Shown here piece after piece: positions 1 through 10,414 of a stretch of 10,414 nucleotides of DNA. The stretch is from assembly GCA_002474345.1 (NCBI GenBank), contig DKQD01000196.1, forward strand, positions 1 through 10,414. Reading direction: 5' to 3'. How positions within the stretch are numbered: position 1 is the first letter of the stretch; the number at the start of each line of letters is the position of its first letter. Below the pieces are notes generated by a model, which saw only the letters and a list, made by a program, of their open reading frames with translations, did no database searches and was not told the DNA's origin. This stretch comes from Bacteriovoracaceae bacterium UBA7317 (GTDB lineage Bacteria > Bdellovibrionota > Bacteriovoracia > Bacteriovoracales > Bacteriovoracaceae). Both the position numbers and the translations under genes were made by a program.

Positions 1-1
1 T

Positions 2-1645
2 GATGACGGATCTCCCATTGAAAATGGAGCTTACACATTTCCTGCTTTAGCTGCAGGAGGGGAGTGCACGACAAGGTCTTATGCTCTTTTTCTTTCCCAT
101 CTTATAAATGCTTTCCATAATATTGATGGTTCAGGAGGAATTCATCACAATACCGCCGTTCTTATGTTCCACTCAGAAAGGTGTCAGGGAAGCGTCGACT
201 TTATTGGTGCAAAAATGGGATTGGGTGTATTTGTAGCGAGAGCAGGCCTTAATAAAATTGCTCTTCATCACGCCGCTAATGATGGATTTCGAAGCCTTTT
301 CTTATGCTGCATAAATGGTCCCAATCAAGGAGAGGGGTTTGTTATTGCAAGTAACGGAAGTGACAATGCTATGAAGTTGAATTGTTTTGTTGCCCGTGAA
401 CTTTTGATACCATGGCATGGCCTAAATTTAGGTGACTCTGTTTTAGAAACCAAGGGGCTAGATCCGGAGGAAGTTGTTAGTCAGGCCTTAAAAGAAATGG
501 TCCTTTGTTATTTTCAGGAAATTTTACCTGAAATGCCTTTTAGAGCAGGGGCCATAGAAAATCGCGCGCACCAAAACATGGCGGTAGGCTCAAAAATAAT
601 TCACTGTACAGACCAAAGTTTTGCAAGGGCCTCTAATTTATTCAGCGATAGGCAACCAGTTTTTGATGCCAATGAATTCGGACGTCAAGGTAAAATTATG
701 GACAGCTGGGAAAGCAAAAGGCACAACCCTCAGGAAAAAGAAACGGTTATTTTTTCACTAAAAGAAGCCAGTCAGTTTGACCTCGTTCATATTTCAACTG
801 AGTTTCACAATGGGAATCAATGCCCTTTTGCAAGCCTTTCTGGCTGGAATGAAAAGGAAAAGGAGTGGGAGGTTATTGTTTCTAAATCCCCCCTCGAGCC
901 CCATTCAAGCCACTGGTTTAAATTAAAAGAGGGTTCTAAGAAAGTTTGGCGGAAGCTTTCTCTGTCTGGTTACCCAGACGGTGGGATTTCTCGTTTAGGA
1001 CTCTATAAAAGTAGGGAAGTCAAAGACCTTCCAGAAAATGTTGTGGAAGATTTAGATAAAGAAGGTTTTTCGATTGAAGCATGTTCTTCCAAGATACCAA
1101 AAGGTGAGGAGAAAATTGTTTTAAGGCCTGAGGATATTGATCCTGAGGTAATCGATAGAAGATGGATGTGTATTAATCAAAAGTCACCCGTTGACGTTTC
1201 ATCTACTGAATATGGTGGCAAAGTTATTCAATGCACAGATGAACATTATTCACCAGCTCATCTTATTCTATCAAAGGAAAAACCTATGGGGATGGAAGAT
1301 GGCCTTGAATCAAGCCGAAGTCGTGGAAATCATAATGAGGAGGTCATTGTAGGGCTTAAAAAGAAAGCGCTTATAAAAAACTTCGAATTTGATTTTACCT
1401 ATTTTATTAATAATAGCCCACGGGAGATTGATATTTATGGTGATGTTGATGGGAATTGGGTGCCGATCGTAAAAAAAATGAGGGTGAAGGCCTGGGCCGG
1501 CAATATTTTAAGGCTTAATTGCGACTCGATTCAAACGGATAAGGTACGAATAAGGATTTTTCCAGATGGAGGAATTAACCGATTTAAGGTTTTTGGAGTG
1601 CCTGCTTTAGAAAAATCTTTGTCAGACACTTCACGGTTAATGTAA
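2..1645 (+). CDS. Serine hydrolase (class C beta-lactamase fold) fused to two allantoicase-like repeats; 5'-truncated by window edge
   Basis: The frame is open from base 2, giving 547 visible codons; the first in-frame ATG is only at 164, so the true start lies upstream. Visible residues 1-135 resemble the C-terminal half of class C beta-lactamase/PBP-type hydrolases: YTFPALAAGG, GLGVFV, HHAANDGFR at the usual KTG/HGG box, and GEGFVIASNGSDN. The SxxK and YxN motifs would lie upstream. Two allantoicase-type repeats follow. Repeat 1 (nt about 584-1006) has CTDQSFA, MDSWESKR, STEFHNGN and YPDGGISRL. Repeat 2 (nt about 1205-1597) has CTDEHYS, MEDGLESSRSR and FPDGGINRF. Allantoicase hydrolyses allantoate to ureidoglycolate and urea, but both repeats lack the usual GHDW segment and parts of the DTxxFxGN motif, so activity is uncertain. 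The hydrolase substrate is unknown. An aminotransferase gene and a single-repeat allantoicase gene follow. The domain reading is firm for the repeats and good for the hydrolase. Confidence 0.87.
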   Translation, partial: DDGSPIENGAYTFPALAAGGECTTRSYALFLSHLINAFHNIDGSGGIHHNTAVLMFHSERCQGSVDFIGAKMGLGVFVARAGLNKIALHHAANDGFRSLFLCCINGPNQGEGFVIASNGSDNAMKLNCFVARELLIPWHGLNLGDSVLETKGLDPEEVVSQALKEMVLCYFQEILPEMPFRAGAIENRAHQNMAVGSKIIHCTDQSFARASNLFSDRQPVFDANEFGRQGKIMDSWESKRHNPQEKETVIFSLKEASQFDLVHISTEFHNGNQCPFASLSGWNEKEKEWEVIVSKSPLEPHSSHWFKLKEGSKKVWRKLSLSGYPDGGISRLGLYKSREVKDLPENVVEDLDKEGFSIEACSSKIPKGEEKIVLRPEDIDPEVIDRRWMCINQKSPVDVSSTEYGGKVIQCTDEHYSPAHLILSKEKPMGMEDGLESSRSRGNHNEEVIVGLKKKALIKNFEFDFTYFINNSPREIDIYGDVDGNWVPIVKKMRVKAWAGNILRLNCDSIQTDKVRIRIFPDGGINRFKVFGVPALEKSLSDTSRLM

Positions 1646-1690
1646 CTTTTGACCAGTATTATATTTTTAATGTTCACTATTTTTCGAGGG

Positions 1691-1749
1691 AGAAAGGAAT
1701 GGAACTTTATTCTTTCTTAACCTATGAATTCGTACGGTCTTTAATTTAA
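1691..1749 (+). other. Leader region of the aminotransferase gene: imperfect hairpin and possible 16-codon ORF
   Basis: AGAAAG(g)AAT at 1691-1700 pairs with ATTCTTTCT at 1709-1717, giving a 9-bp stem with one bulged G. It is not followed by a proper T-run, so it is a poor terminator. The same stretch holds an ATG at 1699 behind the purine-rich GAGGGAGAAAGGA; it opens a 16-codon frame (MELYSFLTYEFVRSLI) that stops at 1749, 20 nt before the aminotransferase start. It may be a leader peptide or chance; no codon bias suggests attenuation by a particular amino acid. Confidence 0.2.
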
Positions 1750-1756
1750 AAAATTG

Positions 1757-1762
1757 AAGGAG
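1757..1762 (+). promoter_or_regulatory. Ribosome binding site fixing the aminotransferase start
   Basis: AAGGAG lies 6 nt upstream of the ATG at 1769. It overlaps the region just after an in-frame TTG at 1754, so the ATG at 1769, not the TTG, is the start. Confidence 0.8.
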
Positions 1763-1768
1763 ATTGAT

Positions 1769-2875
1769 ATGCCTTTGGAATTAACACCAAGAACTCTTAT
1801 GGGCCCAGGTCCGAGTGATGTTCACCCCAGAATTTTAGAAGCAGTAGGCAAGCAAACAATTGGACATTTGGATCCACAGTTTGTTGAACTAATGGAAGCG
1901 ATAAAGTCTCTTCTTAAATATACTTTTAAAACAAAAAATGAAATGACTTATACGGTTTCAGCACCAGGATCTGCCGGAATGGAAACATGCTTTGTCAATT
2001 TGGTTTCACCGGGTGATAAGGTTTTAGTTTGTATTAACGGTGTTTTTGGCAAAAGGATGTTAGAAAATGTGACGAGAATTGGTGGTGAAGCAGTTGTATT
2101 AGAGTTTCCTTGGGGTAGTGGTGTCGATCCACGAAAAGTTGAGGAAGAGTTAAAGAAAGATCCCGCGATTAAAATTGTCTCCTTTGTTCATGGAGAAACA
2201 TCAACAGGTGTTTTATCTGATGCAGAAGCTATTGGAAAAATAGCAAGAGAAAATGATTGTCTTACTATTGTGGACACCGTGACTTCCTTTGTCGGAACAC
2301 CTTTGGAAGTCGATAAGTGGGGGCTTGATGCTGTTTATACAGGTTCTCAAAAATGCCTTTCATGTATCCCTGGGTTATCACCAGTAACTTTTAGTGAAAG
2401 GGCCCTTGAAAAATTTGATCAAAGAAAAACACCGGTTCAAAGTTGGTTTTTGGACCTCTCTTTAATTAAGAATTATTGGGGGACGGGCGAAAAAAGAACT
2501 TATCACCATACAGCTCCTGTTAACTCTCTTTATGCACTTTATGAATCCCTCTTGCTCATTAAAGAAGAAGGACTTGAAAATTGTTGGGAAAGGCATTTTA
2601 AAAATCACCTCAAACTAAAAGAAGGATTAGAGAAATTAAACCTTGAGTTTTTAGTTGACGAAAAAGAGAGGACTCCTCAGCTGAATGCGATAAGAGTGCC
2701 GGAGGGGGTAGATGAAGCTAAGGTAAGGGGAAGGCTTTTAAATGAATTCAACCTTGAGATTGGAGCTGGTTTAGGCCCTTTGGCCGGTAAAATCTGGCGG
2801 ATAGGCCTTATGGGATATTCTTCAAGAAAAGACAATATTGACTTTCTTTTGGATTGTTTGAAAAAAGCACTTTAA
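1769..2875 (+). CDS. Alanine/serine-glyoxylate aminotransferase (class V, AGT1-like)
   Basis: This 368-residue PLP enzyme probably transfers an amino group from alanine or serine to glyoxylate, giving glycine. It resembles human AGXT over its whole length: MGPGPSDVHPR at 11-21, GSAGMETC near 67-74, HGETSTGVL at 141-149, PLP-contacting Asp169 in IVDTV, Schiff-base Lys195 in TGSQKCL, YHHTAPVNSLYAL from 245, and carboxylate-binding Arg344 in RIGLMGY. Ureidoglycine-glyoxylate aminotransferases (PucG) carry, as I recall, Gln in the GQFDP motif and Asn in NHHT. Here these are His33 (GHLDP) and Tyr245, which points to the ordinary amino donor rather than ureidoglycine. The ATG at 1769 is chosen over an in-frame TTG at 1754 because of the AAGGAG site 6 nt before it. 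The gene sits between two allantoicase-type genes, consistent with removing glyoxylate derived from allantoate. Confidence 0.92.
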   Translation: MPLELTPRTLMGPGPSDVHPRILEAVGKQTIGHLDPQFVELMEAIKSLLKYTFKTKNEMTYTVSAPGSAGMETCFVNLVSPGDKVLVCINGVFGKRMLENVTRIGGEAVVLEFPWGSGVDPRKVEEELKKDPAIKIVSFVHGETSTGVLSDAEAIGKIARENDCLTIVDTVTSFVGTPLEVDKWGLDAVYTGSQKCLSCIPGLSPVTFSERALEKFDQRKTPVQSWFLDLSLIKNYWGTGEKRTYHHTAPVNSLYALYESLLLIKEEGLENCWERHFKNHLKLKEGLEKLNLEFLVDEKERTPQLNAIRVPEGVDEAKVRGRLLNEFNLEIGAGLGPLAGKIWRIGLMGYSSRKDNIDFLLDCLKKAL

Positions 2876-3070
2876 ATAGGTATTTAAAACAAAAATTTTT
2901 TTAAAAGAGATATCAATGTAAGAGCTTTCTGACAAAAAATTAACTTGGAATAAAAATAGGGAGGGTGTTAGCATCAATCTTTAAGAACTGTTATTGATCT
3001 TTTTCATTGGGATTGCAAAAAAATGAATTTTTATTTGCTTAAACCTATGAACAAAAAAATGGATCTTTAA
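2876..3070 (+). other. 195-bp intergenic leader before the single-repeat allantoicase gene
   Basis: This spacer is very AT-rich. I see no clear intrinsic terminator after the aminotransferase. An imperfect hairpin lies at 3015-3038 (GCAAA and AAA pairing with TTT and TTTGC around one mismatch). A short in-frame ORF from the ATG at 3023 ends at the TAA at 3068-3070, directly against the downstream ATG. A GGGAGGG at 2959-2965 looks like a Shine-Dalgarno sequence but precedes no usable long frame. Confidence 0.3.
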
Positions 3071-3571
3071 ATGGCGTTTGGTTTTGAAAGAAAGGTGTGG
3101 ACACCTACAACAGGTTTGAGGAATCTTGCCCTTGTAAAACAGTGCGCAAAAGTGGTTTTTGCCACAGATGATTTTTTTGGGGCCAAAGAAAATCTTATAA
3201 GGCCCGAAAAACCTGTCCAAAAGGAGTCCGGTCTTGATGCTTGGGTTACCAAGAGGAGAAGAGGTCAAGGGCACGACTTTGCAATTATAAGACTTGGATC
3301 CATTGGGTTGGTTAAAGAGGTGATCGTCGATACAGCTTTTATTGATGGAATGACACCTTCTTTTATTTCTATTGATATCCAAAATAGAAAGGATGTTTCT
3401 TTAAATGAAGGGCACTGGACCGAGGTTCTTCCAATGAAACCCCTCTCATCAAACCGATCTTTTCTTTTAAGGTTAAGCGAATTATATCCGGCACTCTTTG
3501 TTCGACTCAATGTCTACCCTGATGGAGGGATTGCTAGGTTGCGTTTAATGGGAGTTGAGGCCCAAGTTTAA
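3071..3571 (+). CDS. Single-repeat allantoicase-like protein
   Basis: The 166-residue product corresponds to one allantoicase repeat; the usual enzyme has two repeats and about 330-350 residues. Its motifs are the most canonical of the three repeats in the window: VVFATDDFFGAKENL (28-42), LDAWVTKRRR (55-64, usually MDGWETRRR), GHDFAIIRLG (67-76, usually GHDW), DTAFIDG (87-93, usually DTxxFxGN) and YPDGGIARLRLMG (149-161). The family hydrolyses allantoate to ureidoglycolate and urea. Whether one repeat is active alone, forms a homo-oligomer, or pairs with the double-repeat fusion upstream is unknown. No Shine-Dalgarno sequence precedes the ATG, which directly follows an in-frame TAA (3068-3070), but the start keeps the complete repeat. 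Its 3' end overlaps the convergent malate synthase gene by 27 nt. Confidence 0.85.
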   Translation: MAFGFERKVWTPTTGLRNLALVKQCAKVVFATDDFFGAKENLIRPEKPVQKESGLDAWVTKRRRGQGHDFAIIRLGSIGLVKEVIVDTAFIDGMTPSFISIDIQNRKDVSLNEGHWTEVLPMKPLSSNRSFLLRLSELYPALFVRLNVYPDGGIARLRLMGVEAQV

Positions 3572-5752
3572 TTCTTTTTCCAAAAGCGTTACTTCTTCAG
3601 GAACTGAATACTTGTTAGGATCGCTAGCATAGGCTTTTGCCCATGGATCCCTCTCATTTCTTATGAAATCAAAAGTAAAAGGAAGAAGAAGCTCTGTTGC
3701 GAATTCACTTGGATTTGGATCAGTCATAAGTTTCGTGAGTATTTTTATACTGACTAGGTACCATTTATAAGTTTTTTTATTCCATTGAACTTGTATCTTC
3801 TTAGTTTCTGTTTCCTGGTTATAGCGGATAAAATCAATTTCCTCTTTTAGGATTTGATAGAAATCCGCTTTTGAAAAACGTTTGTGGAAAATTTCCGCCC
3901 AAACTTCCCAGCGAGACCGCTCGGTTGTTGCCAAATCATCCATAACTCTTACAAACACGTCCTTTCCGTCCCCATTTTTGAGAGTGGCCGGGAGGGCAAC
4001 GCAACCATTTCCATTTAACCAATCGACCAAATACTGGATGACCTGAAAGATATTATAACGTACCTCCTCAGGGTCATTATTTTGGATCGTGCTCGACTTA
4101 GTTATAGTTGCCGCTAATAGTTCACGGTTAAAAAGAGGGTCGTCTTTTCTTAAGTTTTCATTGTTTTTTTCTGTAACAAAGGTCCATAGATCTTTTTGTT
4201 CCTGAGGCATGGAGGGAAGAAGGACCTTAATAAGGTTTTTTAGGTCTTTTTCTTTGTTTTCCTTTTTGAGCTTGTTCCAGGCCCAACAAATGGCGATACC
4301 TGGTCTCACGAAGTCAGGGTGAGCAACCCAAAATCCATTAAGACCTCTTCTCAGCTGAATAAGAATATCTTTAATAAAACCAATCATGGCCAGTCTATAA
4401 GATTCCCTATTTCCATGTAAAGGAAGAACCCCATACATACCACCAATAGCAGCACCCCCTTTTTCTCCTACTTCTTTTGCAACTAAGTCGTGGGACGCCT
4501 TGATATGTTTAATGACGATATTAGGATCTGCTTTAACGGGGATTCTATAGAAGGGGTCTAGGCGGAATAGCCTTGCTGTTGAAGCCAAATAATCATGCCA
4601 GCCAAGAGATCCACCGGCAAAATAAGGGTAGAGTTCTTTAATGATTTCTTTAATTCTAAAGATCGCCCTTGGGTTTTCAAAAACAATAAGGACTCTTATT
4701 GTCCCTCTTTTATAGCTCGGTTGAAAATTTTGAATCATTTCTTCTGCGGTCTCAATAAGCTTTTTTAAATAGCGGGCCTCGTTCTCATTTTCCAACTTTG
4801 GAAAATAAAATGTAAGTGCTTCAGGGTTGTTCCAGCAATGAAAAAGGTGCATTCCAAAATCGAAGAGGTGAAGGGGAAGAGGGTTTTCTTTATAAATATG
4901 CCCTCCAGAAGGCAGTCCAAACCCAGGAGGTCTTTTAATCGGCTTCGCTAATTGTTCTTTCTCTATAGAGTAATGTTTTCCACTTTTCTTGTCTTGGTAT
5001 TTTAGGCTTTTATCAAAGCATTTGATTAAATTTTTACAAGCTTCAGAAAATGAATCTATATTAGGCGTTTTAGAATCTTCATCATCGGCGCCCCACTTTG
5101 GAAGGATTTTAGATTCGTTTACGAGTTTGGTAACGAGTTCATGTTCATTTTCATCTTTACGATGCCAAGAGTTCATAGCATTGATAGACATTTTCCGAGT
5201 GTCTGAAGGCCCAAACAAGGTGACATGGTGACCTTTTAAATGGGAAGGTAGTTCGAAAATAGCCGTTTCAACAGGCCTTTCGAGGGGACCAACAACTACG
5301 TTTTTTTGGGCATCCTTTTTTCCAATGATAGTTTCATATTGTTTATCCAAATAAGAAAACTTAAACTCTTTGTTTTTTTTAGACATCTGATTTGTTTGTG
5401 TATCAATAAAGTGGCGGTCTTCTTCTCTCTTTTCAAGGATTTTTCTTAGATCTTCTTTAACTTCATCATAAAGGCGGCATACAAAATAGAGGGCCTCCTC
5501 TTGCTCTAAGGGTGATTTTTTTGAAGTAAGAGGTTTCATATAAAGGCCTGGAATGCTTTTTATTTCAATCATTTCTTTTTTTAGATTTTTTAAAAGGTCA
5601 CTTGAGATATAATTTGAAAAAGATAAAACTGGTTTTTGTAAAGTATATTTAGGAGGACGTGTTTTTTTATCTTTAATATTTTCTTTATCTTTATAAGTGT
5701 TTGTATTTTCCATTTTTTTTAGTCTCTTTAAAAAGGAAAGCGTGTTTGCCAT
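3545..5752 (-). CDS. Divergent malate synthase (type A-like), 735 aa
   Basis: It probably condenses glyoxylate with acetyl-CoA to malate in the cytoplasm. The type A signature series is present in order: LFDFGMHLFH (296-305), FYFPKLE (315-321), KRGTIRVLIVFEN (348-360) with the active-site Arg region and metal ligand Glu359, GWHDYLAS (384-391) with metal ligand Asp387, GGAAIGGMYGVLP (432-444), NGFWVAHPDF (472-481), and VMDDLATTERSR (603-614) with catalytic base Asp606, which matches MEDAATAEISR. It is much longer than usual type A enzymes (about 530-550 residues). A Lys-rich N-terminal tail (1-40) and charged inserts near 195-275 and 493-540 account for part of this. Length approaches type G, but motifs do not. 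ATG at 5752 gives the longest frame; ATG at 5713 (Met14) is an alternative, and neither has a good Shine-Dalgarno site. The family call is firm; activity and start are less so. Confidence 0.85.
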   Translation of the reverse strand: MANTLSFLKRLKKMENTNTYKDKENIKDKKTRPPKYTLQKPVLSFSNYISSDLLKNLKKEMIEIKSIPGLYMKPLTSKKSPLEQEEALYFVCRLYDEVKEDLRKILEKREEDRHFIDTQTNQMSKKNKEFKFSYLDKQYETIIGKKDAQKNVVVGPLERPVETAIFELPSHLKGHHVTLFGPSDTRKMSINAMNSWHRKDENEHELVTKLVNESKILPKWGADDEDSKTPNIDSFSEACKNLIKCFDKSLKYQDKKSGKHYSIEKEQLAKPIKRPPGFGLPSGGHIYKENPLPLHLFDFGMHLFHCWNNPEALTFYFPKLENENEARYLKKLIETAEEMIQNFQPSYKRGTIRVLIVFENPRAIFRIKEIIKELYPYFAGGSLGWHDYLASTARLFRLDPFYRIPVKADPNIVIKHIKASHDLVAKEVGEKGGAAIGGMYGVLPLHGNRESYRLAMIGFIKDILIQLRRGLNGFWVAHPDFVRPGIAICWAWNKLKKENKEKDLKNLIKVLLPSMPQEQKDLWTFVTEKNNENLRKDDPLFNRELLAATITKSSTIQNNDPEEVRYNIFQVIQYLVDWLNGNGCVALPATLKNGDGKDVFVRVMDDLATTERSRWEVWAEIFHKRFSKADFYQILKEEIDFIRYNQETETKKIQVQWNKKTYKWYLVSIKILTKLMTDPNPSEFATELLLPFTFDFIRNERDPWAKAYASDPNKYSVPEEVTLLEKELNLGLNSH

Positions 5753-5872
5753 TACCGTTTAATATTCTAATTACTCATTCAATAACTAATCCAAGCAGCA
5801 AGTAGTACATAGATTTTTTACTTTTACAAGTAGGACTAAGGTTGTTTCTCAAGTCGCTTTCATTAAAAATTC

Positions 5873-5900
5873 TTGACAAGTATTGATTTCAAAGTAAAGA
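5873..5900 (+). promoter_or_regulatory. Probable sigma-70-type promoter of the second aminotransferase
   Basis: A perfect -35 hexamer TTGACA (5873-5878) is followed after 16 nt by the weak -10 hexamer TAAAGA (5895-5900). A start near 5907 would give a leader of about 80 nt. Confidence 0.5.
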
Positions 5901-5907
5901 TTTCTTC

Positions 5908-5937
5908 CCTTTAAAAAATAGAGCTTTTTTAATAAGG
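5908..5937 (+). other. Inverted repeat in the 5' leader of the second aminotransferase
   Basis: TTAAAAAA (5911-5918) and TTTTTTAA (5925-5932) are perfect complements around a 6-nt loop. With a 2-nt bulge the stem extends to CCTT (5908-5911) pairing with AAGG (5934-5937). It lies between the predicted start and the ribosome binding site, so it could fold in the mRNA leader; any regulatory role is inference. Confidence 0.35.
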
Positions 5938-5976
5938 CCCTTAACTATAAGACCGTTGCAGCGGAATAGAAAAATA

Positions 5977-5984
5977 AGAGGTGA
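5977..5984 (+). promoter_or_regulatory. Ribosome binding site fixing the second aminotransferase start
   Basis: AGAGGTGA closely matches the anti-Shine-Dalgarno complement, and its core is about 8 nt upstream of the ATG at 5990. An in-frame GTG at 5981 lies inside this site, so it is not the start. Confidence 0.75.
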
Positions 5985-5989
5985 TAAGA

Positions 5990-7129
5990 ATGGCCGGTTT
6001 ACTCTCTCATATAGACCCCAATGGGCATTTAGAATATTCTGTTGTCTACACAGACCGTTCTTTAAATCATATGTCTGAATCATTTCAGGAAGTGATGAAG
6101 GATATTTCTCAATCTTTAAAAAAGGTTTATAATGCTGAAGCAGTTGTTGTTGTACCGGGTAGCGGAACTTTTGGAATGGAATCTGTTGCCAGGCAATTTG
6201 CTACAAACAAAAAATGTATGGTTATTAGAAATGGGTTTTTTAGTTATCGTTGGACTCAAATTTTTGAAATGGGAGAAATTCCTTCTGAAAGTAAAGTTTT
6301 AAAGGCGACACCTGTTGAGGATGGAAAACAGGCTTCTTTTGCTCCCGCACCCCTTGAAGAAGTCATCGCTAATATTAAATTATTTAAACCTGACGTTGTG
6401 TTTGCTCCTCATGTTGAAACGTCGGCGGGAATGATCCTCCCCGATTCGTATATTCACGCCGTATCGGATGCTGTTCACGAAGTTGGTGGCCTCTTAGTTT
6501 TAGATTGCATCGCTTCGGGAACTATTTGGGTTGATATGAAAAAGTGTGGGGTTGATATTCTTATTAGTGCCCCTCAAAAAGGTTGGAGCGCTTCTCCTTG
6601 TTGTGCTTTGGTTATGTTGAGTGAAGAAGGAAAAAAGAAACTTAGTACTACAACAAGCACCAGCTTTTCTTGCGATTTAAAGAAGTGGCATCAAATTATG
6701 GAAGCCTATGAGAAAGGAGGTCATGCTTATCATGCAACTATGCCTACCGACAGCTTGAAAACCTTTAGAAATGCGATGAATGAAGCAATTGATTATGGAC
6801 TCTTAAAAGTCAAAAGTGATCAGCAGGTTTTGGGTCAAAAAATACGGGATTTGTTAGAGGCAAAAGGTATAAAAAGTCTTGCGGCAAAAGGCTTCCAAGC
6901 CCCTGGTGTAATTGTCAGTTATACCAACGATCCTGGAGTAAAAACTGGTAAGAAATTTTTAGAGTATGATATCCAAATAGCAGCAGGTGTACCTCTTAAA
7001 TGTGATGAGCCTAGTGATTTTCAAACATTTCGTATTGGTCTTTTTGGACTCGATAAATTAAAAAATATTGATAGAACTGTTTCAAATATTTCAGACGCCT
7101 TTGATCAGATTCTAGGAAAAATTCACTGA
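5990..7129 (+). CDS. Class V PLP aminotransferase, alanine-glyoxylate aminotransferase family (second paralogue)
   Basis: The 379-residue product has the fold-type I class V layout: PGSGTFGMESVARQF (56-70) in the PLP-phosphate region, HVETSAGMILP (141-151), LDCIASG with PLP-contacting Asp172, Schiff-base Lys197 in SAPQKGWSASPCC (193-205), and FRIGLFG with probable carboxylate-binding Arg348. The N-terminus (DPNGHLEYSVVYTDRSLNHM) matches a widespread proteobacterial subfamily usually annotated as alanine-glyoxylate aminotransferase family, whose substrate is poorly defined. It is clearly a different subfamily from the enzyme at 1769-2875, so it is not a recent duplicate. The ATG at 5990 is preferred because a strong AGAGGTGA site precedes it. 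The gene reads away from malate synthase and ends just before a strong terminator, so it is probably transcribed alone. The family is certain; the amino donor and acceptor are not. Confidence 0.9.
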   Translation: MAGLLSHIDPNGHLEYSVVYTDRSLNHMSESFQEVMKDISQSLKKVYNAEAVVVVPGSGTFGMESVARQFATNKKCMVIRNGFFSYRWTQIFEMGEIPSESKVLKATPVEDGKQASFAPAPLEEVIANIKLFKPDVVFAPHVETSAGMILPDSYIHAVSDAVHEVGGLLVLDCIASGTIWVDMKKCGVDILISAPQKGWSASPCCALVMLSEEGKKKLSTTTSTSFSCDLKKWHQIMEAYEKGGHAYHATMPTDSLKTFRNAMNEAIDYGLLKVKSDQQVLGQKIRDLLEAKGIKSLAAKGFQAPGVIVSYTNDPGVKTGKKFLEYDIQIAAGVPLKCDEPSDFQTFRIGLFGLDKLKNIDRTVSNISDAFDQILGKIH

Positions 7130-7150
7130 TTTTCTTTTTAAATAATCCTT

Positions 7151-7190
7151 AAAAAAAGAGGGAGGCCATTTTTACTCCCTCTTTTTTTTT
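7151..7190. terminator. Strong intrinsic terminator, probably bidirectional
   Basis: AAAAAAAGAGGGAG (7151-7164) and CTCCCTCTTTTTTT (7175-7188) form a perfect 14-bp stem with a 10-nt loop, followed by further T residues to 7190. The A-run on the left gives the - strand a matching U-tract. It closes the aminotransferase unit and separates it from the lipoprotein gene. Confidence 0.93.
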
Positions 7191-7204
7191 GGGTCTTCGC
7201 CGAA

Positions 7205-7239
7205 AATGATAAGGATAATTTTTTTTTATTAATATCATT
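7205..7239. promoter_or_regulatory. Dyad and possible -10 box upstream of the lipoprotein gene
   Basis: AATGATA (7205-7211) and TATCATT (7233-7239) are perfect 7-nt inverted arms around an AT-rich spacer. Between them, GATAAT (7214-7219) matches 5 of 6 of a -10 box; the best upstream partner, TTGGGT at 7189, has a long 19-nt spacing. An operator over the promoter is possible, but AT-rich DNA yields such dyads by chance. Confidence 0.25.
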
Positions 7240-7257
7240 AATTTTAGGGCGAAATTC

Positions 7258-8205
7258 GTGAAGAAGCGGTTTTTTAGGCTTTTAACTTTTATTGGTTTAG
7301 CTTCATTTTCTCTGACTATTCTTGTTGGGTGTAGTGTTCTTAGGTTTGGGCAGGTTAAAGAGGTTGGTTTAAGTGAAAATAAGCTTTTTATGAATTATTT
7401 TAAGTATTGGTTTAGGAGCTTTGGTTATAAGGTGGAATCAGTCCATACGGGTTTGATCTTTGAAAACAATGGAGACAAGAGCGGATTTCAGGAGGGGAAC
7501 AGGTTAAAAGGACCTCCATTCTTTAAGAAAAAACTTTTAATCATGACCTCTATAGACTTTAAGGATGGAGAAAAAGGGAATTGCCTCATTGATTTAAGCA
7601 TATTCAAAGAAGAATTTAGGCAGGGAGATTTTCCTTTTTATATTAATTTAAACTGCCAAAAACCTTTTCAAACACTAGAAAGAGAGAAAGAACTCTTTCC
7701 CAAAATTTCTAAAATTTACTCTATAAAGCTTAAGCCTATTGTAAACTTTAAGGTTCAAAGAAGCTTTCGATACTTTGTAGAAAGTAAAAGGTGGCCTGTT
7801 GCTATTAGGCTTTTAGATCAAGGAGCTGACCCTAGAGTTTACATAAATAAATATGAAAATATAGGAACGACCCCACTCAATATAGCCTTCAGTGATTTCT
7901 GGAATTTTTATAATAGAATTCATTCAATTCCATTTATCAATAGACTATTAAAAATCAAAGGAGTCATTGACTTTGAAGATGCAGGTGGAAGTTCTGCTCT
8001 AGTGAAATTTTTATTAAAAGATAAAAGATTAGTTGTCAAAAAGTTAATTCAGGAAGGAGCCGTTTTAAAAGTAAAAAGTAAAAAACAAAAAGAAGTTTTT
8101 TTAGAGCTTTTAAAGAACTATAAAAAAGAAAGTGAAGGTTTTTTGGAGCTATTTTACCAGAAACTCAACAGTATTTCTCAATTTCCATCCTCAATTTCAA
8201 TATAG
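7258..8205 (+). CDS. Lipoprotein with divergent ankyrin-like repeats
   Basis: The 315-residue product starts with a lipoprotein signal peptide: MKKRFFR, then a hydrophobic stretch to residue 23, and lipobox LVGC with lipidated Cys25. Ser follows at +2, which by the E. coli rule would allow transport to the outer membrane. I recognise no enzyme motif. Residues 170-270 hold two divergent ankyrin-like units: PVAIRLLDQGADP followed by GTTPLNIAF (180-211), and SSALVKFLLKD with VVKKLIQEGAVL (245-270). These suggest a protein-binding role in the periplasm or at a membrane. The region between residues 30 and 165 is unfamiliar. The start is a GTG, supported by AGGG at 7246-7249, 8 nt upstream. A strong terminator lies before it, so it is read from its own promoter, perhaps together with the next gene 109 nt downstream. 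The lipoprotein call is firm; the repeat call is moderate. Confidence 0.8.
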   Translation: MKKRFFRLLTFIGLASFSLTILVGCSVLRFGQVKEVGLSENKLFMNYFKYWFRSFGYKVESVHTGLIFENNGDKSGFQEGNRLKGPPFFKKKLLIMTSIDFKDGEKGNCLIDLSIFKEEFRQGDFPFYINLNCQKPFQTLEREKELFPKISKIYSIKLKPIVNFKVQRSFRYFVESKRWPVAIRLLDQGADPRVYINKYENIGTTPLNIAFSDFWNFYNRIHSIPFINRLLKIKGVIDFEDAGGSSALVKFLLKDKRLVVKKLIQEGAVLKVKSKKQKEVFLELLKNYKKESEGFLELFYQKLNSISQFPSSISI

Positions 8206-8314
8206 ATATCCTATAAAAATGATTAAGGATTTTCTTTTAGGAAATTATGTCTCCTTTTAATTGTTTTTTAGTTGATTTTAAAAGCGTGCTCCTCTTTGTC
8301 GAAAAAGAAGCACT
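8206..8314 (+). other. 109-bp spacer between lipoprotein and barrel-protein genes
   Basis: I see no convincing terminator or promoter here. A weak complementarity (CCTA/AAAA near 8210 with TTTTAGG near 8235-8241) is too imperfect to call. The two flanking envelope genes could be co-transcribed. Confidence 0.25.
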
Positions 8315-9616
8315 ATGATCTTAAAAGTAAATGAGCTTTTTTCAAAAAAGCTTCTTGTTTCTTTTTATTTTGTAATGACCTTTTTATTTTTAGAGGGTCA
8401 AGAATTATTCGGAGGTACGACTGCCCTTATTCCCTCTAATTTCGGCTTAAATAGGGCCGAAACAATGACGGCTTATCCTTATAAGGGGTCTTATTTTTGG
8501 TATAATCCAGCTTTATTTAAGTATTCGGGATTGAAAATAAATTTTGTCGGTGTTGATTTTATTTTAGATGACAATACTAAAAATAATATAAATGACCGCT
8601 TAAATCAAAAAGATATTGATACACTGGATGAATTCTCAAAAATTTTAGACCAGGATGATGCGACTATTTCTGGAGGAAGCCTTAATGTATTGAAGCTCTA
8701 TTTACCTTATTTTGGATTGACGACATTCGCCCAGGGAATTGTAACATCTTCGCCAACAAGTGATGGAAAGGTTTTGAACTCTTTGATCAGAGCAGGTGTT
8801 ACGAGTGGATTTGCGATTTCTTTAGGCAAGCTTTCCATTGGTTATTCTGCATTTTTAATAAAACAGGCGCAGGTTCTATCAAGCCCTGATAGCTCCCAGT
8901 TGGAAACGATAAAAAGCCACTACGAAGCGGGGACATTAAATCCTTCTAATGTTAATCTAGCTGATTATACAAATGCCTATTATGGAGAAACGTTTGGGCA
9001 AAACATAGGTGTTCACTATCAATTTTTTGACAATAATAATTCTGGTATTGGAGTAAGCATTTTAAATGCACAGGGTTCAACTTTTGGAAATACGAAGTCT
9101 CTTATTAAGGGGGTCGTGAAAGACTTAGACAAAGAAATGGAAAAAGAGGCAACAAAAATTGGTGTTACCTTAAAAAAGCCTGGTCATCTAAAGCAATTGA
9201 TTAATGCCGGAATTCACTTGGAGTTGGGACAAAAGGGAGATGACTTGTTAAACCTATCTCTTTCTGCTGATTATCAAGATATAAATGGAGTAACAATAGA
9301 CAATAAATTGTCTTTCGCTTCAGAGTTTGGCCTTCATATACCAGATTCTGTCGCGGTTAAATTTAGTGCTCCTATTGGTGAAAAGGACGGAACTTATTAT
9401 CATGTTGGCCTTTTGAATTTAAATCTCATTGCTGGATATAGACCTAAAGAAAGTTATAGCTATGGAGCAACCCTTGGGACCCATTGGGGTGTTAACCGGA
9501 CACTCTCTCTTTTAAGAATGGATTTTCAGGCAAGCAAAACTGTGAGCCTTAATAAAAAGACTGTCCCAAATTCTTGGGGGTTTCAAACAAATCTAAGTTT
9601 AATTTTTCTCTTTTAA
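8315..9616 (+). CDS. Probable outer-membrane beta-barrel protein
   Basis: The 433-residue product has an N-terminal signal-like segment: KK at 11-12, then the hydrophobic LLVSFYFVMTFLFL to about residue 26. Cleavage is likely shortly after, near 33-36. The mature chain is rich in Gly, Ser, Asn and aromatic residues in alternating strand-like patterns. The early SYFWYNPALF (59-68) recalls the NPA segment after the plug of FadL/PorV/TraF-like barrels. The chain ends NLSLIFLF, with the terminal Phe and alternating hydrophobics expected of a BAM recognition signal. A charged helical segment (265-285) probably forms a loop or periplasmic element. The function is unknown: a transporter, a secretion accessory or a TraF-type protein are all possible. 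The start has only a weak AGAAG site 4 nt before ATG; the next Met is inside the signal segment, so the first ATG is kept. Confidence 0.75.
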   Translation: MILKVNELFSKKLLVSFYFVMTFLFLEGQELFGGTTALIPSNFGLNRAETMTAYPYKGSYFWYNPALFKYSGLKINFVGVDFILDDNTKNNINDRLNQKDIDTLDEFSKILDQDDATISGGSLNVLKLYLPYFGLTTFAQGIVTSSPTSDGKVLNSLIRAGVTSGFAISLGKLSIGYSAFLIKQAQVLSSPDSSQLETIKSHYEAGTLNPSNVNLADYTNAYYGETFGQNIGVHYQFFDNNNSGIGVSILNAQGSTFGNTKSLIKGVVKDLDKEMEKEATKIGVTLKKPGHLKQLINAGIHLELGQKGDDLLNLSLSADYQDINGVTIDNKLSFASEFGLHIPDSVAVKFSAPIGEKDGTYYHVGLLNLNLIAGYRPKESYSYGATLGTHWGVNRTLSLLRMDFQASKTVSLNKKTVPNSWGFQTNLSLIFLF

Positions 9617-9670
9617 AATGCTTTAAACACTGACATATGTTAAAGTGGGCTAAAATTTACTCTAAGCATT
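9617..9670 (+). promoter_or_regulatory. Putative promoter with nested dyads upstream of selO
   Basis: CTGACA (9630-9635) and TAAAAT (9651-9656) resemble -35 and -10 boxes, with a short 15-nt spacer. Two inverted repeats surround them: an outer AATGCTT (9617-9623) with AAGCATT (9664-9670), and an inner CTTTAA(a)CA with TGTTAAAG (9621-9646). Such nesting could mark an operator; no regulator is identified. Confidence 0.3.
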
Positions 9671-9678
9671 AGGAATAT

Positions 9679-10414
9679 ATGAAAATCGATTTTACAAATA
9701 CTTATGCAGATTTGGGAGAAGCTTTTGGGCAATTCATACGGCCAAGTAGTGCAGTAGACCCTGAATTGATCCTTTTTAACCATGAGTTAGCTTCATTTTT
9801 AGGAATAGATTCTTCTTCAACACCTATGGAAGAGCTTGCAGAGGTCTTTTCGGGTAAGAAAATTTTGGAAAAATCAAGACCGCTGGCCATGGCGTATGCT
9901 GGCCATCAATTCGGTCATTTCGTTCCCCAGTTAGGTGATGGGAGGGCCATTCTTTTGGGAGAAGTATTGGCCTCTAACCAAAAATATCATGACCTTCAGC
10001 TAAAAGGAGCTGGGCAAACAGCTTTTTCAAGGCGCGGTGATGGACGCTCATCTTTGGGACCTGTTATACGTGAATATATAGTCAGTGAGGCCATGTATGC
10101 TTTTGGTGTCCCTTCGACGAGGGCCTTAGCAGCTGTAACAACTGGTGAAACAGTTTATAGAGAGGAGGCGTTGCCCGGAGGAACTCTAACGAGGATTGCT
10201 TCAAGCCATATAAGGGTAGGGACTTTTGAGTATTTTGCTTATCGAAAAGACGATGGAAATCTAAAAGCTCTTGCTGACTATGCTATCAAAAGACATTATC
10301 CAGAGTTAATAAATGAAGGCGATAAATATTTTCAATTTTTTAAGGCCGTAGCACTTAAAAAACTGGAGCTTGTTGCAAAGTGGATGGGTCTTGGTTTTAT
10401 TCATGGTGTAATGA
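9679..10414 (+). CDS. selO: Protein adenylyltransferase SelO (YdiU family), 3'-truncated by window edge
   Basis: 245 codons are visible; the gene runs off the right edge. SelO has a kinase-like fold and transfers AMP from ATP to Ser, Thr or Tyr hydroxyls of target proteins. Family motifs are clear: FGQFIRPS near 16, AYAGHQFGHFVPQLGDGRA (72-90), LQLKGAGQTAFSRRGDGRSS (106-125) with the nucleotide-binding Lys109, SLGPVIREYIVSEAM (125-139), TTGETVYRE (154-162) and RIASSHIRVGTFEYFA (172-187). The window ends inside the conserved HGVM segment, just before the expected NTDN motif that leads to the catalytic Asp region, so the active site and the C-terminus, including any selenocysteine motif, cannot be judged. 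The start at 9679 has AGGAA upstream with a short 3-nt gap. It is about half the usual length (about 480-500 residues) only because of the window edge. It appears unrelated to the glyoxylate genes. Confidence 0.95.
   Translation, partial: MKIDFTNTYADLGEAFGQFIRPSSAVDPELILFNHELASFLGIDSSSTPMEELAEVFSGKKILEKSRPLAMAYAGHQFGHFVPQLGDGRAILLGEVLASNQKYHDLQLKGAGQTAFSRRGDGRSSLGPVIREYIVSEAMYAFGVPSTRALAAVTTGETVYREEALPGGTLTRIASSHIRVGTFEYFAYRKDDGNLKALADYAIKRHYPELINEGDKYFQFFKAVALKKLELVAKWMGLGFIHGVM

Follow-up and report, generated by a model that had tools for sequence, protein, structure and literature searches.

What does a serine hydrolase of the class C beta-lactamase type do in the same polypeptide as allantoicase? 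The question is raised by the first gene of the DNA stretch analyzed here (the window), which spans bases 1-10,414 of a contig of 20,013 bases from a genome that is 85.6% complete (G000). As described below, this fusion is real, and we consider it likely to be a short-form member of a ureide-catabolising multi-enzyme family found in Bdellovibrionota and Planctomycetota. The multi-domain protein appears to be used by relatives of Bdellovibrio for uric acid breakdown.

A serine hydrolase joined to two allantoicase repeats

The frame at positions 2-1645 (+) is stop-free over 547 aa and truncated by the contig start (Table 1). It covers the last 547 residues of a protein of 763 aa, whose full-length representative, P0002, is 100% identical (rounded) over the whole frame, one residue near the C-terminus being different. 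P0002, whose entry identifies it as the protein cluster of the window itself (15 members; the longest contig has 22 kb), adds 216 residues upstream of the window frame and thereby completes a PF00144 serine hydrolase. In the window fragment alone Pfam matched allantoicase only, the hydrolase half being too short for PF00144; full-length relatives matched the latter profile, among them P0002 and the copy at locus L004 (71.6 bits with a cut-off of 27, residues 7-338). The initial annotation had proposed that a beta-lactamase-type hydrolase is fused to two allantoicase repeats, and this is borne out by the open frame, the Pfam repeats, the full-length relatives with PF00144 and the joined-protein relatives that turned up at 57 loci of other records when the same domain order was sought elsewhere. 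An assembly error is therefore unlikely, all the more so as P0002 spans the whole frame. The hydrolase remnant had likewise been recognized correctly, but instead of the 135 residues assigned to it, it covers approximately residues 1-178 of the frame.

The PF03561 match of the window frame reached 182.3 bits in two stretches (Pfam cut-off of 27). Read from the translation, both repeats keep the CTD, ESxR and PDGG motifs and neither contains GHDW, as had been noted at the outset. Yeast allantoicase (1sg3/1o59; PF03561, TIGR02961) aligned over both repeats and shares with the fusion the two-repeat layout, PDGG and the D-x-W-E..R residues, whereas the fusion differs from it in that its repeats stand behind a serine hydrolase, lack GHDW and score 189.4 bits with TIGR02961, below the equivalog cut-off of 277.9. 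By these profile scores, the fusion's allantoicase is an allantoicase-like lineage not filed as a TIGR02961 equivalog. The earlier suggestion of degenerate repeats that have been reduced to ligand binding is not supported: their Pfam score is far above the cut-off, they align with the yeast enzyme, and their key residues are invariant in the long forms of the protein (see below).

Table 1. Features of the window, with positions on the window
Feature	Positions	Strand	Remarks
PF00144 (class C beta-lactamase/CubicO) serine hydrolase, C-terminal part	2..535	+	residues 217-394 of the full-length protein
Allantoicase repeat 1 (PF03561)	587..1009	+	motif GKIMDSWESKRHN and PDGG
Allantoicase repeat 2 (PF03561)	1214..1603	+	motif MEDGLESSRSR and PDGG
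Class V aminotransferase AT1	1754..2875	+	best solved match alanine-glyoxylate aminotransferase 1vjo; also PucG 3isl
Stand-alone single allantoicase repeat	3071..3571	+	38% identical to repeat 1 of the sister genome's canonical allantoicase
Malate synthase	3545..5752	-	homologue of the N-terminal domain of long-form proteins (approximately 50% identity)
Class V aminotransferase AT2	5981..7129	+	best solved match 3ke3 (putative serine-pyruvate aminotransferase)
SelO protein adenylyltransferase, start	9679-10413	+	unrelated to the fusion; runs off the window end

Conserved residues of the hydrolase domain

Among the catalytic motifs that the initial annotation had proposed to look for upstream, SxxK was present (S60-M-T-K63 in P0002, and in 62/62 hydrolase sequences), but YxN was not. 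The position of the class C tyrosine is occupied by Tyr in 56/62 sequences and by Phe in the six that make up the window's clade, and the Asn position is Gly in 62/62, such that the family reads Y-S-G in 56/62 and the window copy F-S-G. The family Tyr aligned with the tyrosine of Y-L-N in 2qmi (E 1e-11 for that stretch) and, more weakly, with that of Y-S-N in 2qz6. KTG, a feature of class C beta-lactamases, is absent, and we found instead an invariant His (62/62), placed by motif, within H-x-[GA]-x-N-x-G near the C-terminus; the hydrolase part of the window carries H305-H306-A-A-N309-D-G-F-R313 at window residues 89-97. The domain thus resembles class C beta-lactamase/CubicO proteins (6k8x, 2qz6, 2qmi) in its PF00144 profile, SxxK and aligned Tyr, and differs from them in Y-S-G for Y-x-N, in the C-terminal His motif and in belonging to a purine-catabolic chain. 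When the motif was read at 87 loci, 30 of which represent largely the same genomes again, 78 carried Tyr and four Phe (two genomes, each twice); of the five outside the pattern, L054 has Tyr but a differing spacer, and four, including the window, lack the segment.

A long form with four enzymes

A protein longer than 1,200 aa that carries the hydrolase motif (the long form) is encoded at 47 of the 57 loci. These open frames mostly span 1,530-1,630 aa, typically 1,550, and several are contig-cut. Read by Pfam on L006, L053 and L044 (three of the 47) and on P0165, the domain order is malate synthase (PF01274 with MS_C), OHCU decarboxylase (PF09349; 59.7-76.3 bits in these four proteins, cut-off 24), serine hydrolase (PF00144) and two allantoicase repeats. 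Of the remaining ten loci, two (L004 and L005) genuinely have the short form, as does the window, and eight hold contig-cut or frame-interrupted copies. The window's frame is therefore a shortened member of a four-enzyme protein, which goes beyond what the window alone could show.

In the alignment of the 47 long forms, the Ser, Lys, Tyr and His of the hydrolase were invariant (47/47), as were the His and Glu-Gln of the OHCU decarboxylase (47/47), the Glu/Asp of malate synthase (47/47) and DSWE..RHN in allantoicase repeat 1 (47/47); the malate synthase Arg and DGxE..R.R in repeat 2 were each found in 46/47, with one gap. We take the decarboxylase, malate synthase and allantoicase positions to be catalytic, and the long-form PF09349 and PF01274 residues align with those of solved relatives. 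The window's genus departs from the long form in having malate synthase as a separate gene and the OHCU decarboxylase fused to AllB.

Approximately 40 of the 57 loci are titled as Bdellovibrionota groups and ten as Planctomycetota, and the remainder as Proteobacteria, Lysobacteraceae, Chitinophaga or without a group. In a midpoint-rooted tree, the copies from planctomycetes cluster as one group among the others, a pattern that suggests transfer. The copy titled Chitinophaga pinensis (Bacteroidota; L058) nests among planctomycete sequences and probably stems from a mislabelled bin. The long form is also encoded by two Bdellovibrio strains that bear names and no metagenome-bin label (P0165 and P0182). 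Stand-alone homologues of the hydrolase domain occur in eukaryotic data (P0029, Amorphochlora; P0127, a chrysophyte; P0125, Effrenium), and SLSK and YSGGG were found in the stand-alone homologues P0029, P0071 and P0127. Another hydrolase relative, P0104, has C-terminal EF-hand domains and is probably eukaryotic. Among the matches listed (120 of 582), long forms bear the names serine hydrolase, malate synthase, allantoicase, OHCU decarboxylase or aldolase/citrate lyase, so annotation pipelines have already met this architecture; our search of open-licence papers returned none on the fusion or on a serine-type allantoinase.

Urate pathway genes accompany the fusion

An excerpt of PMC6320678 outlines the pathway as urate, HIU, OHCU, allantoin and allantoate, on which allantoicase then acts. 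We looked for these steps around the 42 long-form loci that have 2.7 kb or more of upstream sequence and in 51 genomes, namely G000 and the genomes of 50 of the 57 loci, most of which are incomplete and interrelated. HIU hydrolase lies at most 700 bases from the start of the long-form gene in 38/42 loci (on the opposite strand in planctomycete loci), and PuuD stands in the flanks of 26/42. Genome-wide, 49/51 encode a urate oxidase (PuuD in 41, uricase PF01014 in eight others) and 47/51 an HIU hydrolase. At L004:3013-4407 (-), the gene for a membrane urate oxidase that resembles PuuD and has a CxxCH motif is divergently oriented from the short-form fusion. With PuuD or uricase, HIU hydrolase, OHCU decarboxylase and allantoicase present, both the conversion of urate to allantoin and the cleavage of allantoate are possible; the step from allantoin to allantoate falls between OHCU decarboxylase and allantoicase, and the ureide domains of the fusion thus stand in reaction order.

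To our knowledge, there are two allantoinase families, AllB and PuuE. PuuE (TIGR03212) scored over the cut-off in 0/51 genomes (1/14 control genomes) and AllB (TIGR03178) in 1/51, the window's own (2/14 controls), with a contig-cut AllB also in G001. Outside the window's genus, all AllB hits above 70 bits scored higher as dihydroorotase or D-hydantoinase; in G007 the margin over AllB was slight and the protein, a cyclic amidohydrolase (L082), stays unclassified. A 291-bit hit in the fusion genome G104 is a dihydroorotase. A D-hydantoinase over the cut-off was present in 17/51 genomes and a dihydroorotase in 26/51. We counted the D-hydantoinases and the unclassified protein against the allantoinase reading. 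As a hidden allantoinase, D-hydantoinase could serve in those 17 genomes but not in the rest, and the other large amidohydrolase hits fit dihydroorotase better. The fusion itself contains neither an amidohydrolase nor a polysaccharide-deacetylase domain (Pfam) and may work like an allantoinase without belonging to AllB or PuuE. AllB, an amidohydrolase, catalyzes the reaction that we propose for the fusion and is described as a binuclear metal enzyme in a part of PMC9863593; PuuE, which has a polysaccharide-deacetylase fold and is called a non-metal-dependent allantoinase in a part of PMC10967932, belongs to a family unrelated to the fusion and sets a precedent for a non-homologous allantoinase.

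AllB and the fusion across the phylum

We then compared 368 genomes of the Bdellovibrionota phylum, calling the fusion at E 1e-40 and AllB by its profile cut-off. The fusion was matched in 70 genomes (some matches being contig-cut and covering part of the protein), AllB over the cut-off in 23 and allantoicase in 96, with allantoicase present in 23/23 AllB genomes. Allantoicase occurs without the fusion in 26 genomes, and AllB was found in 22 of these (24 if the contig-cut G334 and G406 are counted). Of the 67 genomes that carry the fusion and lie outside the window's genus, by contrast, 0 had AllB over the cut-off (Fisher p ~1e-17, with no correction for kinship). The exclusion also splits single genera: in g145, G373 has the fusion and G374 AllB, and in g157, G389 has the fusion and G388 AllB. 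Two genomes, G161 (62% complete) and G162 (67% complete), have allantoicase without AllB or the fusion. The weak allantoicase match in G161 could be a cut fusion type, while G162 encodes PuuD, canonical allantoicase, OHCU decarboxylase and HIU hydrolase side by side, which counts against our reading.

Of the 22 genomes with AllB and no fusion, 20 were inspected for the genes around AllB. AllB and allantoicase are grouped in all 20 regions, adjoining each other in the canonical operons of the phylum, and are accompanied by OHCU decarboxylase and HIU hydrolase in 19 regions and by PuuD in 15; a serine hydrolase or malate synthase domain was found in 0/20. As AllB did not exceed the cut-off in any fusion genome outside the window's genus, the hydrolase domain appears to take AllB's place.

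The Phe-type copy of the window's genus

The window's genus, to which the genomes of L004 (Halobacteriovoraceae) and L005 (Bacteriovoracales) also belong, is the exception and constitutes a natural experiment on the fate of the hydrolase domain beside the canonical enzyme. In G000, AllB is C-terminally fused to OHCU decarboxylase and followed by HIU hydrolase (L061:6877-8730, contig C105), and the same arrangement, contig-cut, is seen in G001. Given the order AllB-allantoicase-OHCU decarboxylase-HIU hydrolase in relatives, loss of the middle gene could have generated this fusion. Neither AllB nor HIU hydrolase was found in G002 (68% complete), and a separate canonical allantoicase is present in G001 and G002 as well.

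The Phe-bearing copies form one group (100/100), nested with Tyr-bearing short forms. Its six members are changed at 6/45 otherwise conserved hydrolase positions versus 1/56 in the allantoicase (nominal p ~0.04; four gap columns were dropped, and in a fifth column five of the six sequences have a gap), and the lone allantoicase change also occurs in the Tyr form P0013. Together with AllB in G000 and G001, these hydrolase changes, namely Tyr to Phe and five further conserved positions, would fit a dead relic that was left after replacement by AllB and now serves as a scaffold for the allantoicase. For the window copy we regard this explanation as possible but doubtful: SxxK and HxxxN are kept, and in simple Nei-Gojobori counts the hydrolase dN/dS between the window and L004 was 0.026 over 178 codons, below the 0.077 of the allantoicase part. 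The hydrolase value was 0.050 for the window versus L005 and 0.106 for L004 versus L005 (whole domain, dS saturated), compared with 0.024-0.145 in eight Tyr-type pairs, in 7/8 of which it was below that of the allantoicase. Moreover, Tyr150 mutants of class C enzymes retain activity according to a portion of the review PMC6723624, and we therefore dropped simple decay of the Phe-type domain. Such strong constraint beside AllB is not what a simply replaced allantoinase would predict. Instead, the Phe-type copy has probably shifted its substrate or works with altered catalysis, and a shifted function would be a better reading of the window copy than a loss of function. According to the initial annotation, the substrate of the hydrolase could be an amide that is related to the ligand of the repeats; this fits the family, by position and AllB replacement, but less so the window copy, which has lost the tyrosine and coexists with AllB.

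A candidate third allantoinase

Given its position, after OHCU decarboxylase and before allantoicase, and its replacement of AllB, we put the hydrolase forward as an allantoinase. The Tyr-type domain is probably a third, non-homologous allantoinase that works through a Ser-Lys-Tyr acyl-enzyme. The domain content, invariant residues, gene neighbourhood and AllB exclusion were observed; this chemistry and any channelling along the chain are inferred. The Gly at the class C Asn position and the gap at the ureidoglycolate step (see below) weigh against the assignment. OHCU decarboxylase makes (S)-allantoin. The SxxK serine would attack the ring amide of its hydantoin at the carbonyl that adjoins C5, with Lys and Tyr shuttling protons. 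The ureido nitrogen would leave yet stay tethered, and water would hydrolyse the acyl-enzyme to allantoate, as in beta-lactam opening; beta-lactams and hydantoins are both cyclic amides. The adjacent allantoicase repeats would then release urea and ureidoglycolate, and glyoxylate would be condensed to malate by malate synthase or aminated. More broadly, we lean towards a serine-type third class of allantoinases that acts within a four-activity chain from OHCU to malate in planctomycetes and in relatives of predatory bacteria, perhaps alone in some protists; in the window's genus, AllB would have displaced it, after which it would have acquired another ureide substrate.

Could the hydrolase act instead on ureidoglycolate, releasing glyoxylate and either urea or ammonia and CO2? 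Ureidoglycolate lyase (PF04115) was missing from 50/51 genomes, with a positive E. coli control, which leaves a gap at this step, and the sole PF04115 gene, L005:7672-8220 (+), lies directly behind a Phe-type fusion. However, AllA-like genes were found in just 2/20 AllB regions (local tblastn, one query), and this gap thus seems common to the canonical operons; it does not track the hydrolase there, whereas AllB does. The domain also precedes rather than follows allantoicase, and a 1970 title in the reference list of PMC4016543 names ureidoglycolate as a substrate of allantoicase. Altogether, we consider this alternative improbable. Very improbable is an esterase or peptidase without a ureide substrate, or the chance fusion of a module that has a structural or regulatory role and was retained for assembly: PF00144 proteins act on many substrates, and some homologues, several of them eukaryotic, stand alone, but the domain is fused between two ureide enzymes, excludes AllB, keeps its catalytic residues in 47/47 long forms and is under stronger constraint than the allantoicase in 7/8 Tyr-type pairs.

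If the allantoinase assignment is true, it fills the allantoinase gap in many Bdellovibrionota and Planctomycetota genomes, adds a covalent serine mechanism to the two known allantoinase families, and recasts proteins that now bear just the name serine hydrolase, malate synthase or allantoicase as nearly complete enzymes for the route from ureides to malate. The presence of the long form in the two named Bdellovibrio strains makes the prediction directly testable.

Other genes in the window

The aminotransferase AT1, which likely converts glyoxylate to glycine judging from its solved matches, also adjoins the fusion in L004 (87%). The window's separate malate synthase scored 90.6 bits with PF01274 (cut-off 26.4) and 137.5 bits with TIGR01344 (malate synthase A), below the equivalog cut-off of 594.5. 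The single allantoicase repeat has an orthologue at L004:8414-8896 (77%). In the sister genome G172, a two-repeat canonical allantoicase (L165:152-1144) lies directly behind a piece of AT1 (L165:2-133).
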